Assembly: GCA_024276465.1 (NCBI GenBank)
Contig: JAJRXD010000179.1
Span: forward strand, 1-45,594
DNA from: Deltaproteobacteria bacterium
GTDB lineage: Bacteria; Desulfobacterota; WTBG01; CAIYCZ01; CAIRTM01
Reading direction: 5' to 3'
Length of the DNA stretch: 45,594 bases
Below, piece by piece: positions 2,445 to 45,594 of the stretch. Position 1 is the stretch's first letter. Each line of letters begins with the position of its first letter. The notes under the pieces were generated by a model. That model was not told the origin of the DNA, made no database searches, and saw only the letters and a list, made by a program, of their open reading frames with translations. The position numbers and the translations under genes were made by a program.

Positions 2445-2540
2445 GGCAGTGACAGAGATTTTTTGTGTTGGCTGCAGGATATAACTTGTATCCTTACAGA
2501 CTGTTAACAGCTTTTGTAATACCTGTCAAGAAAGGGGGGT

Positions 2541-2597
2541 GCTGTTACACTATGCTGCTGTTTGAGAAATCATGTTTTTAAAAAATCGTTCAGATTT
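2541..2597. repeat. family A repeat, partial copy (A1)
   Basis: This stretch matches the right half of the full element at 5104-5223: a GCTGTTACAC block, a TATGCTGCTGTTTG block, then a CATGTTTTT tract and ATCGTTCA. It lacks a clear CCTAA left end and TTAGG right end, so it looks like a degenerate copy. It lies 47 bases before the start codon of the phosphoesterase gene. Confidence 0.55.
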
Positions 2598-2643
2598 GAT
2601 ATTAAAATGCAGGATGTGAGCAGATTTGTGTTAATATTGGTCA

Positions 2644-3729
2644 ATGAACAGAATGACACCATACCTGATTTTTTACAGCATCACTGTTTTCATCTTTTTT
2701 GGCATGCATTTCTATGTCTTTAAATGCCTGAACCGGTTTTTTGCTCTTTCAGGACCAAAAACAATGATTCTTGTTTGTGCTGTCCTGTCTTTTGCTTTTC
2801 CCGTATGCAGTGTCCTTGAAAGGTTTTATCCCAGTGATTTCAGTATGGTTCTTTATACTGCTGCATCTTTGTGGCTGGGAATGCTGTTTCTGTTTTTGAC
2901 CACATTTCTCATCTATGAGCCTGTCAGGCTGATTCTCAGGCCTGATTCAAAAACTACCGGAATTGTACTTGTTGCAGTAGTGTTGCTGGTTTCGCTGTAT
3001 GCTGTGGTAAATGCATTTTTTATTTCAGTAAAAACAGTTGAGGTTGCCCTGCCAAATCTTGCTGTGCCTGTAAAAATGGTTCAGCTGTCTGACATTCATG
3101 TGGGAACAATTCACAACACAGGGTATTTGACTCGGATTGTGGATAAAACCAATGCCCTTTATCCTGACATGGTTCTTATAACAGGCGATTTTTTTGATGG
3201 TATAGGACCGGTTAGCAGGAAGACGGTTGCGCCACTTCAAAACATGAATGCCAGAACATTTTTTGTTATGGGTAACCATGAGCGCTACGGAGATTCTGAC
3301 CGGGTTGCAAAGCTTATGGCAGATACAGGTGTTACCATGCTCAGAAATGAGGTTGTTGAATACAAAGGGATACAGATTGTGGGGGCGGACTGTCCTGAAA
3401 GGGATAATCTGAAGGACACACCCTACCTCAGAAAAATGCAGATAAAAAAGGAGATTCCGTCTATCCTCATGTTTCACCAGCCAACGGGCATTGAGCATGC
3501 AGTTCGTGCTGGTATTAATCTCCAGGTTTCGGGGCACACCCATAATGGCCAGGTTTTTCCTTTTAACCTGCTTGCAAAAATATTTTATCCCTATTTAAAC
3601 GGCCTCTACCTGATAGATGGTATGTATCTGTATGTTTCTCCAGGCACAGGGACATGGGGCCCGCCCATGAGGCTGGGATCACAAAACGAGATAACACTTT
3701 TTAACCTGGTTCCTGTTAAAACAGGATGA
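2644..3729 (+). CDS. membrane-anchored calcineurin-like phosphoesterase (YaeI/YkuE type)
   Basis: 361 residues. About the first 130 hold several hydrophobic helices; the rest is a calcineurin-like metallophosphoesterase domain with all metal-binding motifs: LSDIH (Asp150, His152), TGDFFD (Asp182), GNHE (Asn211, His212), FHQP (His278) and GHTHN (His298, His300). The catalytic domain should bind two metal ions and hydrolyse phosphomonoesters or diesters at the membrane surface. Relatives with this layout (YaeI, YkuE) act on cell-envelope substrates; the substrate here cannot be read from the sequence. The upstream gap holds a partial family A repeat. Confidence 0.85.
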   Translation: MNRMTPYLIFYSITVFIFFGMHFYVFKCLNRFFALSGPKTMILVCAVLSFAFPVCSVLERFYPSDFSMVLYTAASLWLGMLFLFLTTFLIYEPVRLILRPDSKTTGIVLVAVVLLVSLYAVVNAFFISVKTVEVALPNLAVPVKMVQLSDIHVGTIHNTGYLTRIVDKTNALYPDMVLITGDFFDGIGPVSRKTVAPLQNMNARTFFVMGNHERYGDSDRVAKLMADTGVTMLRNEVVEYKGIQIVGADCPERDNLKDTPYLRKMQIKKEIPSILMFHQPTGIEHAVRAGINLQVSGHTHNGQVFPFNLLAKIFYPYLNGLYLIDGMYLYVSPGTGTWGPPMRLGSQNEITLFNLVPVKTG

Positions 3730-3758
3730 TTTCAGTAGAAACTGTAAATTTTTTTAAA

Positions 3759-3787
3759 TTGACTTATTTAAGAACCTGGCTTATAAA
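3759..3787 (+). promoter_or_regulatory. sigma-70-type promoter for metK
   Basis: A TTGACT box (3759-3764), a 17-base spacer and TATAAA (3782-3787) lie 55 bases before the metK start codon. The leader is short and I see no SAM-riboswitch-like fold in it. Confidence 0.6.
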
Positions 3788-3841
3788 TAACGCTTGCGTC
3801 AATCAAATTTATAATTACTGCTTTTGGAGGATAATAAAACC

Positions 3842-5005
3842 ATGTCAATGACAAATTATTTGTTTACATCTGAATCAATTACTGAGGGTCATCCTGATAA
3901 AGTAGCAGACAGGATATCAGACTCTGTGCTGGATGCCATAATGGCCCAGGATAAAAAGTGCCGTGTTGCCTGTGAAACACTTGTAACCACAGGGCTTGCC
4001 CTTATTGCCGGTGAGATAACTACTGACTGTTATGTGCATTTGCCGGACATTGTACGGGAGTCAATAAAAGACATTGGCTACAATGATTCTTCCATGGGGT
4101 TTGACTGGGAAACCTGCTCAGTTATGAGTTCTCTTGACCGTCAGTCACCTGATATTGCAATGGGTGTTGACGAGCGGACAGGGCACGAACAGGGGGCGGG
4201 TGATCAGGGCATTATGTTTGGATTTGCCTGCGATGAAACGCCGGAGCTTATGCCCATGCCCATTCAATATGCCCATGGCCTTACCCGGAGACTTGCATAT
4301 GTCAGAAAAAACGGGATTCTGAATTTTCTGAGGCCGGACGGTAAATCCCAGGTAACTGTAGAGTATCAGGACAAAAAACCTGTCAGGGTTGATACTGTTG
4401 TAATAGCATCCCAGCACACCCCTGATGTAAAGGATAAGGATCTGAAGGAGGGTATTATTGAAGAGGTGATTACCAGGGTTATTCCGGAAGGAATGCTTGA
4501 TGAAAAAACAAAATTTCATATTAACTCAACAGGCAGATTTGTAGTAGGCGGCCCCAGGGGTGATTGCGGTCTGACGGGAAGAAAAATAATATGTGATACC
4601 TATGGCGGGCAGGGCAGTCATGGAGGTGGTGCATTTTCAGGAAAGGATCCCTCAAAGGTTGACCGGTCAGCATCCTATATGGCGCGGCATGTTGCAAAAA
4701 ATATAGTTGCAGCCGGACTTGCAACTCACTGCGAGGTGCAGTTAGCTTATGCAATTGGTGTGGCAAGGCCTGTTTCTGTGATGATAAATACCTTCGGAAC
4801 AAGCAGAATTGCACCTGACAGGATAGCAGCAATTGTTGTTGATGTTTTTGATTTCAGACCTTCAGAGATTATAAAATATTTAAACCTTCTTCGTCCCATA
4901 TTTAAACAGACATCTGCTTATGGTCACTTCGGGCGGGAAGAAGAAGACTTTACATGGGAAAAGACTGACAGGGCTGATATGCTCAAAGAAAAGGCAGGGA
5001 TCTGA
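3842..5005 (+). CDS. metK: S-adenosylmethionine synthetase
   Basis: Makes S-adenosylmethionine from methionine and ATP. The protein (387 residues from this start) has the family signatures: [15 protein letters not shown] near the N-terminus, [10 protein letters not shown] in the middle and the Gly-rich [15 protein letters not shown] segment that binds phosphate, followed by [10 protein letters not shown]. Length is normal for bacterial MetK. The reading frame extends to a TTG at 3824, but GGAGG at 3826-3830 is well placed for the ATG at 3842 (11-base spacing) and would lie inside the longer version, so the ATG is preferred. A good promoter precedes it and a strong terminator follows, so it is probably a single-gene unit. 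Confidence 0.96.
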
Positions 5006-5088: not shown

Positions 5089-5103
5089 ATAATTTAATTT
5101 AGA

Positions 5104-5223
5104 CCTAAGCCGGGCGATTTTTCAGATAAAGACAGCATGGTGTAACAGCATATCACTCATTCAATGCTGTTACACTATGCTGCTGTTTGTGGCATCATGT
5201 TTTTTTGAATCGCTCAATTTAGG
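5104..5223. mobile_element. family A MITE-like element, full copy (A2)
   Basis: A 120-base palindromic element with CCTAA at the left end and TTAGG at the right end. The left end (CCTAA..CGGGCGATT) and the complement of the right end (CCTAA..TGAGCGATT) match over most of 15 bases. A central perfect 12-base inverted repeat GTGTAACAGCAT (5140-5151)/ATGCTGTTACAC (5164-5175) forms a hairpin. Flanks are TTAGA (5099-5103) and TTATA (5224-5228), a 4/5 match consistent with an aged target duplication. There is no room for a transposase. The right flank continues as TATAAT 23 bases before asnB. Confidence 0.7.
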
Positions 5224-5255
5224 TTATAATTTGTTCAGACTCTCAATAATTTATC

Positions 5256-7166: not shown

Positions 7167-7201
7167 AATATAAAGTTGCATGCTGCGCGTTATAAAAAGA
7201 A

Positions 7202-7284
7202 CCTAAATCCGTTCAATGCTGTTTCACTAATCCCGACACAGCGGGATTAGTGAAATAATGTTTTTTTGAATCGTTCAATTCAGG
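7202..7284. mobile_element. family A MITE-like element with AAGAA target duplication (A3)
   Basis: An 83-base element running from CCTAA to TTCAGG, flanked by identical 5-base sequences AAGAA (7197-7201 and 7285-7289). It shares the TTTTTTTGAATCG(C/T)TCAAT right end with A2, but its centre is a different perfect palindrome: a 13-base arm at 7222-7234 pairs with 7243-7255. The right end plus duplication creates AGGAAG (7282-7287), the best ribosome binding site for the archease gene. Confidence 0.75.
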
Positions 7285-7296
7285 AAGAATTAAAAT

Positions 7297-7713
7297 ATGA
7301 ATCGCTATAAATTGATTGACCACACGGCAGATATAGAGCTGTGCATTTTTGGCAATTGCCTTTCCGATCTTTTTCAGAACGCTGGCTACGCACTGTTTGA
7401 TGTTATTACAGATATTGCTGATGTCAGCCACAGGAAGAAGCGCAGGTTTAAGCTTGAGAGGGACCCTGTGGAGGAACTTCTGGTGGAATGGATGAACAGT
7501 CTGCTGTATATTTTTGATACAGAACAGCTTCTTTTCAGCAGTTTCAATGTTATAAGTATTGGCAATAATGAACTCATTGCAGAGGCTCATGGTGAATTTT
7601 ACAATGAAAGCCTTCATATCATCAAAACAGGAATTAAAGCAGTTACCTATCATAACCTTAAAATTTCCGGACAAAACAGGGTCCTGGAGGCTTGTGTGGT
7701 TCTGGATATATAA
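7297..7713 (+). CDS. archease, RtcB activator
   Basis: 138 residues, the usual archease length. It begins with the family motif HTADI (residues 9-13), has the PVEELLVEWMNSLLY segment in the middle, and ends with the conserved VLDI whose Asp137 belongs to the metal site. Archease helps RtcB ligase form its guanylated intermediate and turn over repeatedly. The rtcB gene follows after 17 bases, so co-transcription is very likely. The apparent ribosome binding site AGGAAG is contributed by the end of the repeat element just upstream. Confidence 0.93.
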   Translation: MNRYKLIDHTADIELCIFGNCLSDLFQNAGYALFDVITDIADVSHRKKRRFKLERDPVEELLVEWMNSLLYIFDTEQLLFSSFNVISIGNNELIAEAHGEFYNESLHIIKTGIKAVTYHNLKISGQNRVLEACVVLDI

Positions 7714-11801: not shown

Positions 11802-11884
11802 CCTGGAGTGAGAAGCGTAAAGAGAGTGATATGCTGTTACACTCACTGTCTTTATATGAAAAAGAGCCCGGCTCAATTTTCAGG
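11802..11884. repeat. family A repeat, divergent copy (A4), inside a non-coding gap
   Basis: The sequence GAGTGATATGCTGTTACAC followed by TCACTGTCTTTAT and a CCCGGCTCAATTTT(CAGG) end matches the reverse complement of the left half of A2. The ends are CCTGG and TCAGG rather than CCTAA/TTAGG, and no flanking duplication is visible. Apart from this copy, the 11687-12120 gap between the divergent genes holds nothing I can assign. Confidence 0.5.
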
Positions 11885-30328: not shown

Positions 30329-31312
30329 TCACTTATTTCTCAACCCCACATTATCAGGGCACCCGCAGAGATGCCACCATATAAGATGTGCATACACAAA
30401 GGTTTTCTCCCTGTACCTTTTTTTGGTTCCAAGGGTAAGGCACAGCCCGGCAATTGTCAGCAGAAGGTTGATAATAAGCTTAATAAAACGAAATAAGCGG
30501 AGTGTAACATAAGATGCTGCTGATCTGTTTTTTTTAAAAAACAGATAGAGGGATCTGTAATACTCTATCCAGGCAAGGGAAGGCCTGAGCTTTTTGCTCT
30601 GACCCTGCAGGTGTACTAACTCTGCCACTGGGTGATGGAATATCTTCCAGCCTGCTTTTCTCATCCTGAGGCACCAGTCTGTCTCCTCGAGAAAAAAAAA
30701 GTAGTCTTCGTCAAAAAGTCCCACATCCTTTATTGCCTCTGACCGAACAACAATACATGCTCCTATCAGTGAATCAACTTCAAAAGGTTGTGAAGCTTTT
30801 GAGGTTTTACCTGCAAACCTGTTCGGAAGAAACAGCCGCAGGATGCTTTTGTTGAAAAGCTCTGTTAGAAGTGATGGGAAATTGTCATAGCTGTTCTGGA
30901 TTTTTCCGTCGCCTGACTTCATGCAGGGGCCGGCCATTGCAGCAGACGGATTTTTTTCAAGAAAGGAGACAATGCTCCTTATTGTATTTTCCATGAGAAC
31001 AGTATCACTGTTAAGTAAAACAATATACTTTCCCCCTGCTCTGCGCAGGGCCTGGTTATTGGCCCGGGCAAAACCTGAATTTTCACTGTTTTCAATTAAA
31101 TTTATTTCCCCCCCGAAGCGTTTTTTTACCTTTTCTGCACTTCCATCCTCAGATCCGTTGTCAATCACGTAAATTTCATACTGGTATCCGGTCACTGTGC
31201 TGTGTATCGAGTCAAGGCACTCCAGCAGAAGCCCGCATGTGTTCCAGTTAACAATAATAAAGGAGAGGGTAACTTCAGTTTTTAATAATTTATCAGTCTT
31301 AGTTGATTCCAT
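30329..31312 (-). CDS. family 2 glycosyltransferase (rhamnosyltransferase-like)
   Basis: 327 residues. FIIVNWNTCGLLLECLDSI, VIDNGSEDGSAE and the metal motif LLNSDTVL form the GT-A nucleotide-sugar site; FFFLEETDWCLRMRKAGW is the acceptor/catalytic block typical of WbbL-like rhamnosyltransferases. C-terminal hydrophobic stretches could associate it with the membrane. The start codon lies only 12 bases from the CCTAA end of a family A element, with no ribosome binding site between them. First gene of the minus-strand LPS run. Confidence 0.88.
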   Translation of the reverse strand: MESTKTDKLLKTEVTLSFIIVNWNTCGLLLECLDSIHSTVTGYQYEIYVIDNGSEDGSAEKVKKRFGGEINLIENSENSGFARANNQALRRAGGKYIVLLNSDTVLMENTIRSIVSFLEKNPSAAMAGPCMKSGDGKIQNSYDNFPSLLTELFNKSILRLFLPNRFAGKTSKASQPFEVDSLIGACIVVRSEAIKDVGLFDEDYFFFLEETDWCLRMRKAGWKIFHHPVAELVHLQGQSKKLRPSLAWIEYYRSLYLFFKKNRSAASYVTLRLFRFIKLIINLLLTIAGLCLTLGTKKRYREKTFVYAHLIWWHLCGCPDNVGLRNK

Positions 31313-31324
31313 GATTAATTTATA

Positions 31325-31527
31325 CCTAAGCTGAGCGGTTTTTCAGATAAAGACAGTTAGTGTAACAGCATATCACTCATTCTCAGCAGACATCCATGTC
31401 TGCTTCCGAGGTAAGCATTACACTTCACCATCCAGGTGAAACTTATGTAATGCGTAAATCCGTTCAATGCTATTACACTATGCTGCTGTTTGTGGCATCA
31501 TGTTTTTTTAGAATCGCTCAATTTAGG
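31325..31527. mobile_element. family A MITE-like element with TTATA duplication and inner palindromes (A5)
   Basis: A 203-base copy, flanked by identical TTATA (31320-31324 and 31528-31532). Its outer parts match A2 almost base for base, including the GTGTAACAGCATATCACTC block and the CTGCTGTTTGTGGCATCATG block. Between them about 85 extra bases contain a GCAGACA/TGTCTGC hairpin and a longer GCATTACAC..TTCACC/GGTGAA..GTAATGC palindrome. The extra block may be a second palindromic unit nested in the first. Confidence 0.72.
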
Positions 31528-31615
31528 TTATATTATCTTTCTGACATCAAGTAAAATACTTATTAGCAATCATATTGATATTTAAGCATATTCCTGATAC
31601 AAATGTTGATGGCTT

Positions 31616-31751
31616 CGTAAAAAGTCCAACTTCAGCGTTGCGCTGTATCCTTCGTCATTGCGACGTACAGTAAGTACGACTCATTCCTCAGGATTTGCGC
31701 GCCTTAAATTTGAAGCTTTTTACTTTGCCATCGTTTTTTTGACTTTTTACG
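31616..31751. mobile_element. family B MITE-like element (B1)
   Basis: A 136-base element with perfect 11-base terminal inverted repeats CGTAAAAAGTC (31616-31626) and GACTTTTTACG (31741-31751). It contains a CGTC/GACG hairpin, TACAGTAAGTACG, GGATTTGCGCGCCTT and AAGCTTTTTACTTTGCCATCG, all shared with the copy at 45454-45593 in reverse orientation. No open frame of note. It sits between the two divergent LPS operons. Confidence 0.75.
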
Positions 31752-37701: not shown

Positions 37702-37826
37702 CAAAGTAAAAGGCCGTCTACTGCGTTGCGTTTCATCCTTCCTGATATTAATCAGGACAGCGTACGAACAAGCACGCCTCATTCCCCCTGGATTCCCGCG
37801 CCCTGTATCCGAAGCTTTTTACTTTG
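37702..37826. repeat. family B repeat, divergent copy (B2)
   Basis: CAAAGTAAAA (37702-37711) and TTTTACTTTG (37817-37826) form the ends, corresponding to the inner repeat of B1. Shared blocks are GCGTTGCG..ATCCTTC, a CCTGATATTAATCAGG hairpin, CGCCTCATTCC..GGATT and CGAAGCTTTTTACTTTGCC. The outer CGTAAAAAGTC ends are missing. It lies exactly between the LPS block and the signalling block. Confidence 0.6.
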
Positions 37827-37869
37827 CCGCCTGTTTTCTGGCTTCATTAAATTTGTGCATTCCTTATTC

Positions 37870-45453: not shown

Positions 45454-45593
45454 CGTAAAAAGTGAAAATTCGATGGCAAAGTAAAAAGCTTCAAATTCAA
45501 GGCGCGCAAATCCTCCAGGATGAGGCGTACTTACTGTATCCCGATTAATATCGGGAAAGGATGCCGCGCAACGCCGAAGTTGGACTTTTTACG
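45454..45593. mobile_element. family B MITE-like element (B3), reverse orientation
   Basis: CGTAAAAAGTG (45454-45464) and GACTTTTTACG (45583-45593) are terminal inverted repeats with one mismatch. Read in reverse, it matches B1 nearly throughout, but the central hairpin is CCGATATTAATCGG instead of CGTCATTGCGACG. It ends one base before the window edge. The 45355-45453 stretch before it holds no gene. Confidence 0.72.
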
Positions 45594-45594
45594 A

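Follow-up and report, generated by a model that had tools for sequence, protein, structure and literature searches.

Bacterial miniature inverted-repeat elements (MITEs) with an assigned parental insertion sequence are a known kind of element. In Paracoccus yeei, MITEPye1 is a short, non-coding and hairpin-forming sequence with terminal inverted repeats (TIRs) and direct repeats, which lies between genes and is presumed to be mobilised in trans by an IS that shares its ends (PMC11578231). For Geobacter uraniireducens, the Chunjie MITE is described as having about 38 full and 57 partial copies of 178–235 bp, dispersed, mostly intergenic, and carrying TIRs and direct repeats (PMC10969869). Autonomous elements of the IS1380 family (NF033539, PF13701) include IS1247, with a length of 1672 bp, IR 16/13 and DR 5 (PMC3281130), and ISEcp1, which makes 5-bp duplications (TATGA; PMC2887853).

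The window studied here, a stretch of 45,594 nucleotides of contig JAJRXD010000179.1 from a Deltaproteobacteria bacterium, contains copies of a MITE that shares with the IS1380 family its CCT... termini, inverted repeats of about 16 bp and 5-bp duplications. Unlike IS1380 elements, the window copies carry no transposase, and their interior is unrelated to the autonomous relatives that we found. Chunjie resembles the family in its length and in the number of its copies. MITEPye1 differs in that its ends match IS1182 and not IS1380, and in its 1–3 copies per chromosome (PMC11578231). The Tn3-derived miniature elements known as TIMEs are likewise non-autonomous and make 5-bp duplications, but their inverted repeats are of the Tn3 type and about 38 bp long.

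We conclude, with a probability of about 0.93, that the copies are an IS1380-type MITE, a non-autonomous transposon of about 205 bp with imperfect 16-bp TIRs, mobilised by the DDE transposase of one IS1380 clade. A parental transposon clade is thereby given to a bacterial MITE that had not been recognised before, and one IS1380 clade is linked, in several bacterial families, with a single 16-bp end sequence. While the family is ordinary in kind, comparable to MITEPye1 and IS1182, a limited literature search, with ISfinder and most subscription papers outside its reach, returned no report of an IS1380-derived MITE or of these end sequences. The interpretation in the preliminary description, whose author did not recognise a family with CCTAA/TTAGG ends, is for the most part correct. 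These ends can be assigned to one clade of IS1380-family transposons, and the family itself is apparently new and undescribed as far as we searched.

Copies of the element in the window

The features of the family in the window are as follows.

~2534..2598, plus strand: degraded right-half remnant of the MITE family, joined to a GGGGGG stretch
5104..5223, plus strand: MITE copy A2, 120 bp, central part missing, both TIRs present
7197..7201, no strand: left target-site duplication AAGAA of A1, read from the sequence
7202..7284, plus strand: MITE copy A1 of 83 bp, with an internal deletion that joins CCTAA to the right-hand half, right TIR TGAATCGTTCAATTCAGG kept
7220..7257, plus strand: hairpin inside A1, 16 bp with a loop of 6, then ATGTTTTTTT; intrinsic-terminator-like, downstream of asnB
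7285..7289, no strand: right target-site duplication AAGAA of A1, read from the sequence
~11824..11884, minus strand: degraded left-half remnant of the MITE family
31320..31324, no strand: left target-site duplication TTATA of A3, read from the sequence
31325..31527, plus strand: MITE copy A3, 203 bp, full-length form with TIRs and subterminal and central hairpins
31528..31532, no strand: right target-site duplication TTATA of A3, read from the sequence

The two remnants were absent from the preliminary description. The flanks that it reported for the other copies are all present in the sequence. Copy A3 runs from CCTAAGCTG to TTTAGG between exact TTATA repeats, and its predicted RNA fold is strong (MFE -69.3, z -7.3). 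Copy A2 lies between TTAGA (5099–5103) and TTATA (5224–5228), which are identical at 4 of 5 positions, and has TTC at both joints of its internal deletion. Copy A1 runs from CCTAAATCC to TTCAGG, with an exact AAGAA on either side.

A1 had been described as a palindromic MITE-like element; it does belong to a MITE but is not a complete palindromic element. Its left side consists of CCTAA fused to the interior sequence ATCCGTTCAATGC, which leaves a left TIR of only about 7 bp. Some 120 bp that would separate CCTAA from ATCCGTTC are gone, TAA being found at either joint, and since this includes most of the left TIR, A1 is an atypical form of the family. The 5-bp duplication is perfect despite that loss, and A1 most likely shrank after it had inserted. 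Both A1 and A2 are internal deletion derivatives of the MITE.

The family in the source genome and its target duplications

In the source assembly (4.1 Mb, 181 contigs, 95% complete), searches returned 81 matching pieces with A2 as the query, 47 with A1, and at least 40 places at E<=1e-6 with A3. From the 51 copies or fragments that we extracted, full copies are mostly 200–215 bp long. The consensus of about 205 bp has no coding capacity and starts with the left TIR CCTAAGCTGAGCGATT, which is followed by a subterminal arm, several small hairpins in the centre, a T-run and the right TIR AATCGCTCAATTTAGG. The 16-bp TIRs are imperfect, with 14 of 16 positions identical between CCTAAGCTGAGCGATT and CCTAAATTGAGCGATT. 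The right arm occurs as either a GTTACACTATGCTG arm or a AATCCCGACACAGCGGGATT hairpin, and the two forms are mixed among the copies. The end motif CCTRANNTGAGCGATT is found 133 times with at most 2 mismatches, as against 12 times for the reversed control, and these matches include related elements with diverged interiors. The interior of A1–A3 itself was found in the source genome only: none of the others among the 17 genomes of the class carries it, and a single weak partial match lies in G024.

Contigs C82, C93, C145, C148, C150, C153, C118 and C69 end inside MITE copies, so the repeat breaks the assembly. When the eight copies at contig ends are compared, several pairs show no difference over 121–141 bp, which points to a recent spread of the family.

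In some copies, namely those at C76:3756 (L044), C95:4087 (L041), C161:44062 (L061) and C11:14396 (L047), the loop of the central CACC/GGTG hairpin contains a further, C/G-rich hairpin (CCCCCCTTTCATCCCCCCTTGGTAAGGGGGG...). This C/G-rich hairpin occurs elsewhere too, which looks like the insertion of a second small repeat into the MITE.

For the analysis of target sites, pairs of ends were located in the source genome by the TIR motif alone and their flanks were read afterwards. Exact 5-bp direct repeats flank 19 of the 46 end pairs, compared with a mean of 0.9 and a maximum of 6 in 20,000 shuffles of the pairing. A match of at least 4 out of 5 was seen for 25 pairs (shuffled mean 4.4, maximum 13; 20,000 shuffles). 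No pair had exact repeats of 3, 6, 7, 8 or 9 bp and one had repeats of 4 bp. The target duplication of the family is 5 bp long. Some spurious short pairs are contained in the set of 46, and their effect is to lower, not to raise, the count of duplications. Exact duplications are 87% A+T (e.g., TTATA, TAAAA, TTAAA and TATCA). We detected no correlation between the decay of the duplications and the divergence of the copies (rho -0.17, p 0.38). The flanks are thus not random, and the mobile family with 5-bp duplications that had been proposed from the window holds up in the genome at large.

IS1380 transposons with the same ends

In other genomes, the TIR CCTRAnnTGAGCGATT together with 5-bp duplications bounds full-length transposons of the IS1380 family. 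The terminal 15–18 bp of the MITE are identical to the ends of three of them (L176, L172 and L119). L119 (G022:C67) is a 2775-bp element that starts with CCTAAAGTGAGCGATT, ends with ATCGCTCAATTTAGG and has TGGTT on both sides. It encodes an IS1380 transposase (NF033539, E 9.7e-54; PF13701, E 1.5e-23), which is interrupted by one stop codon, and it disrupts an IS1595 gene. When its flanks are joined minus one TGGTT, they align without gaps over 203 bp with a neighbouring IS1595 paralogue and the reading frame is restored, so that a 5-bp duplication is demonstrated in the case of L119. Such an empty-site match was obtained for this autonomous relative; none was found for the MITE copies among the source-genome loci examined. 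The right TIR of L119 also contains a later IS1595 insertion (about 3121–4133) with ATCGCTCAAT repeated on both sides, a case of nested insertions.

Searching with the L119 transposase revealed further IS1380 elements. L176 is 1740 bp long and flanked by TTTCA on both sides; L172, in Desulforhabdus sp. TSK, is 2448 bp long and flanked by TTATA on both sides, and likewise in G302. In a record labelled Myxococcota (L171), the same end lies beside a related transposase. A tree was built from 20 IS1380 transposases. The 11 that have the TGAGCGATT end all fall into one group with a support of 100/100, and the 9 that lack this end, including L148 of the source genome, fall outside it. As similarity to a single transposase was the main route by which the 11 members were gathered, the tree shows a coincidence of end type and clade within this sample, and does not imply that the end is absent from all other clades. 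L146, an IS1380 element outside the clade, also has 5-bp flanks (TAATA/TAATA) and different ends (CCTGAATTTTGCATCA). Many copies of the clade transposase in G338, G375, G197, G283 and G389 carry one in-frame TAG.

G019, G005, G135 and G341 contain MITEs that share these ends and have exact 5-bp duplications but differ in their interiors. Those of G135 (210 bp, TACAA/TACAA) and G341 (228 bp, TTTTA/TTTTA) share their genomes with the transposase clade. G019, from another family of the same phylum, has 61 hits to the TIR motif and MITEs of about 154–171 bp, several of them with exact 5-bp duplications; no IS1380 transposase was detected in this genome. The occurrence of the same ends on MITEs with different interiors thus suggests that CCTRAnnTGAGCGATT is a shared mobilisation signal. 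Similarity between the MITE and the autonomous elements is limited to the terminal 16–20 bp and the interiors are unrelated, so direct descent of the MITE from one IS does not follow from these comparisons.

Taken together, these comparisons suggest how the family would have spread. The DDE transposase of one IS1380 clade would recognise the MITE TIRs (CCTAAGCTGAGCGATT and CCTAAATTGAGCGATT), move the element and insert it into AT-rich intergenic 5-mers, duplicating 5 bp. In the source lineage, we infer only that the MITE was most likely moved in trans in this way, because the source assembly contains no transposase of the clade: the best match (L139, E 0.15) is a weak one to another transposase-like ORF. 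The cognate transposase would now be either missing from the genome or unassembled. With a completeness of 95% and several contigs broken within MITE copies, the assembly could have missed a multicopy IS; loss of the IS is equally possible. A full-length transposon with the same ends and a transposase, which the preliminary description proposed to look for, thus exists in other genomes but not in the source assembly, and none was found in 37 source-genome regions around partial or unpaired ends. One 1667-bp candidate for an autonomous element (L076, C103:9307) was rejected, as its second end lies within a gene and it has no transposase. L172 and L176 provide intact candidate transposases with which mobilisation in trans can be tested.

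The lack of a cognate clade member in the assembly is also what speaks for a transposase from outside the clade. L148 is the only clear IS1380 element of the source genome (473-aa ORF, E 2.1e-54), and a divergent copy such as this might have moved the MITE. However, no CCTRAnnTGAGCGATT ends can be recognised on L148, which does not belong to the clade that bears them, and we regard it as very improbable both as the cognate element and as the mover of the family.

Still less probable is a Tn3-derived miniature element moved by a Tn3-family transposase. The length of the duplication would fit, and TIMEs are known as mosaic non-autonomous elements (PMC4133298). Against this, the inverted repeats of Tn3 are about 38 bp long (PMC2887853), as compared with the MITE TIR of about 16 bp beginning with CCTRA. 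That TIR occurs on elements that carry IS1380 transposases, which largely refutes a Tn3 origin. Tn3 ends begin with GGGG.

The strong predicted hairpins (z -5.4 to -7.3), the exclusively intergenic location (0 of 32 copies inside ORFs) and the terminator-like hairpin in A1 would also suit a repeat of the REP/BIME or structured-RNA type whose flanks match by chance, and which either owes its spread to a RAYT (Y1 HUH) transposase or persists because of an RNA function. REP/IS200-type elements are not known to make target duplications, and the exact 5-bp repeats at 19 of 46 pairs refute this reading as the origin. In addition, the TIRs equal those of DDE transposons, and an Rfam search matched no family in the window. 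An RNA function acquired in addition is possible.

Placement near genes and other repeats

Copies of the MITE tend to lie close to gene starts. All of the 32 copies fall outside ORFs of 150 aa or more, and 18 of them are placed no more than 50 bp ahead of a start codon, a zone in which 22% of intergenic points overall (p 3e-5) and 26% of AT-rich ones (p 3e-4) would be expected. As the ORFs were called mechanically and several cut-offs were tried, this enrichment is only a lead.

Within the window, 12 bp separate the right edge of A1 from the ATG of an archease gene (PF01951) at 7297, and the left edge of A3 is equally 12 bp away from the start codon (ATG) of a minus-strand glycosyltransferase gene (30329–31312). 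Read outward, every such end finishes in ...AGG. At A1, the CAGG end and the AAGAA duplication together form AGGAAG, 9 nt before the archease ATG, which may act as a Shine-Dalgarno-like string. The A1 hairpin and T-run downstream of asnB score as terminator-like by prediction. From such features, it is conceivable, though rather unlikely, that insertions bring a Shine-Dalgarno core, that the hairpins serve as terminators or leaders, and that copies were recruited as 5′-leader modules altering the expression of downstream genes (archease-RtcB for A1, the glycosyltransferase for A3). If this were so, the enrichment near start codons would reflect recruited modules. Since the copies sit directly ahead of genes, any influence on expression is open to testing.

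Two further repeats of the window deserve mention. A second dispersed palindromic repeat, TCGTAAAAAGTCC...GACTTTTTACG, is unrelated to the MITE and occurs at 31615–31745, 37785–37844 and 45465–45594 as well as at about 1613–1770 of L076. Positions 298–375 hold an inverted repeat, TGTAGGAGCGCGTTTACGCGCGATT, whose 25-bp arms match perfectly across a spacer of 28 bp.
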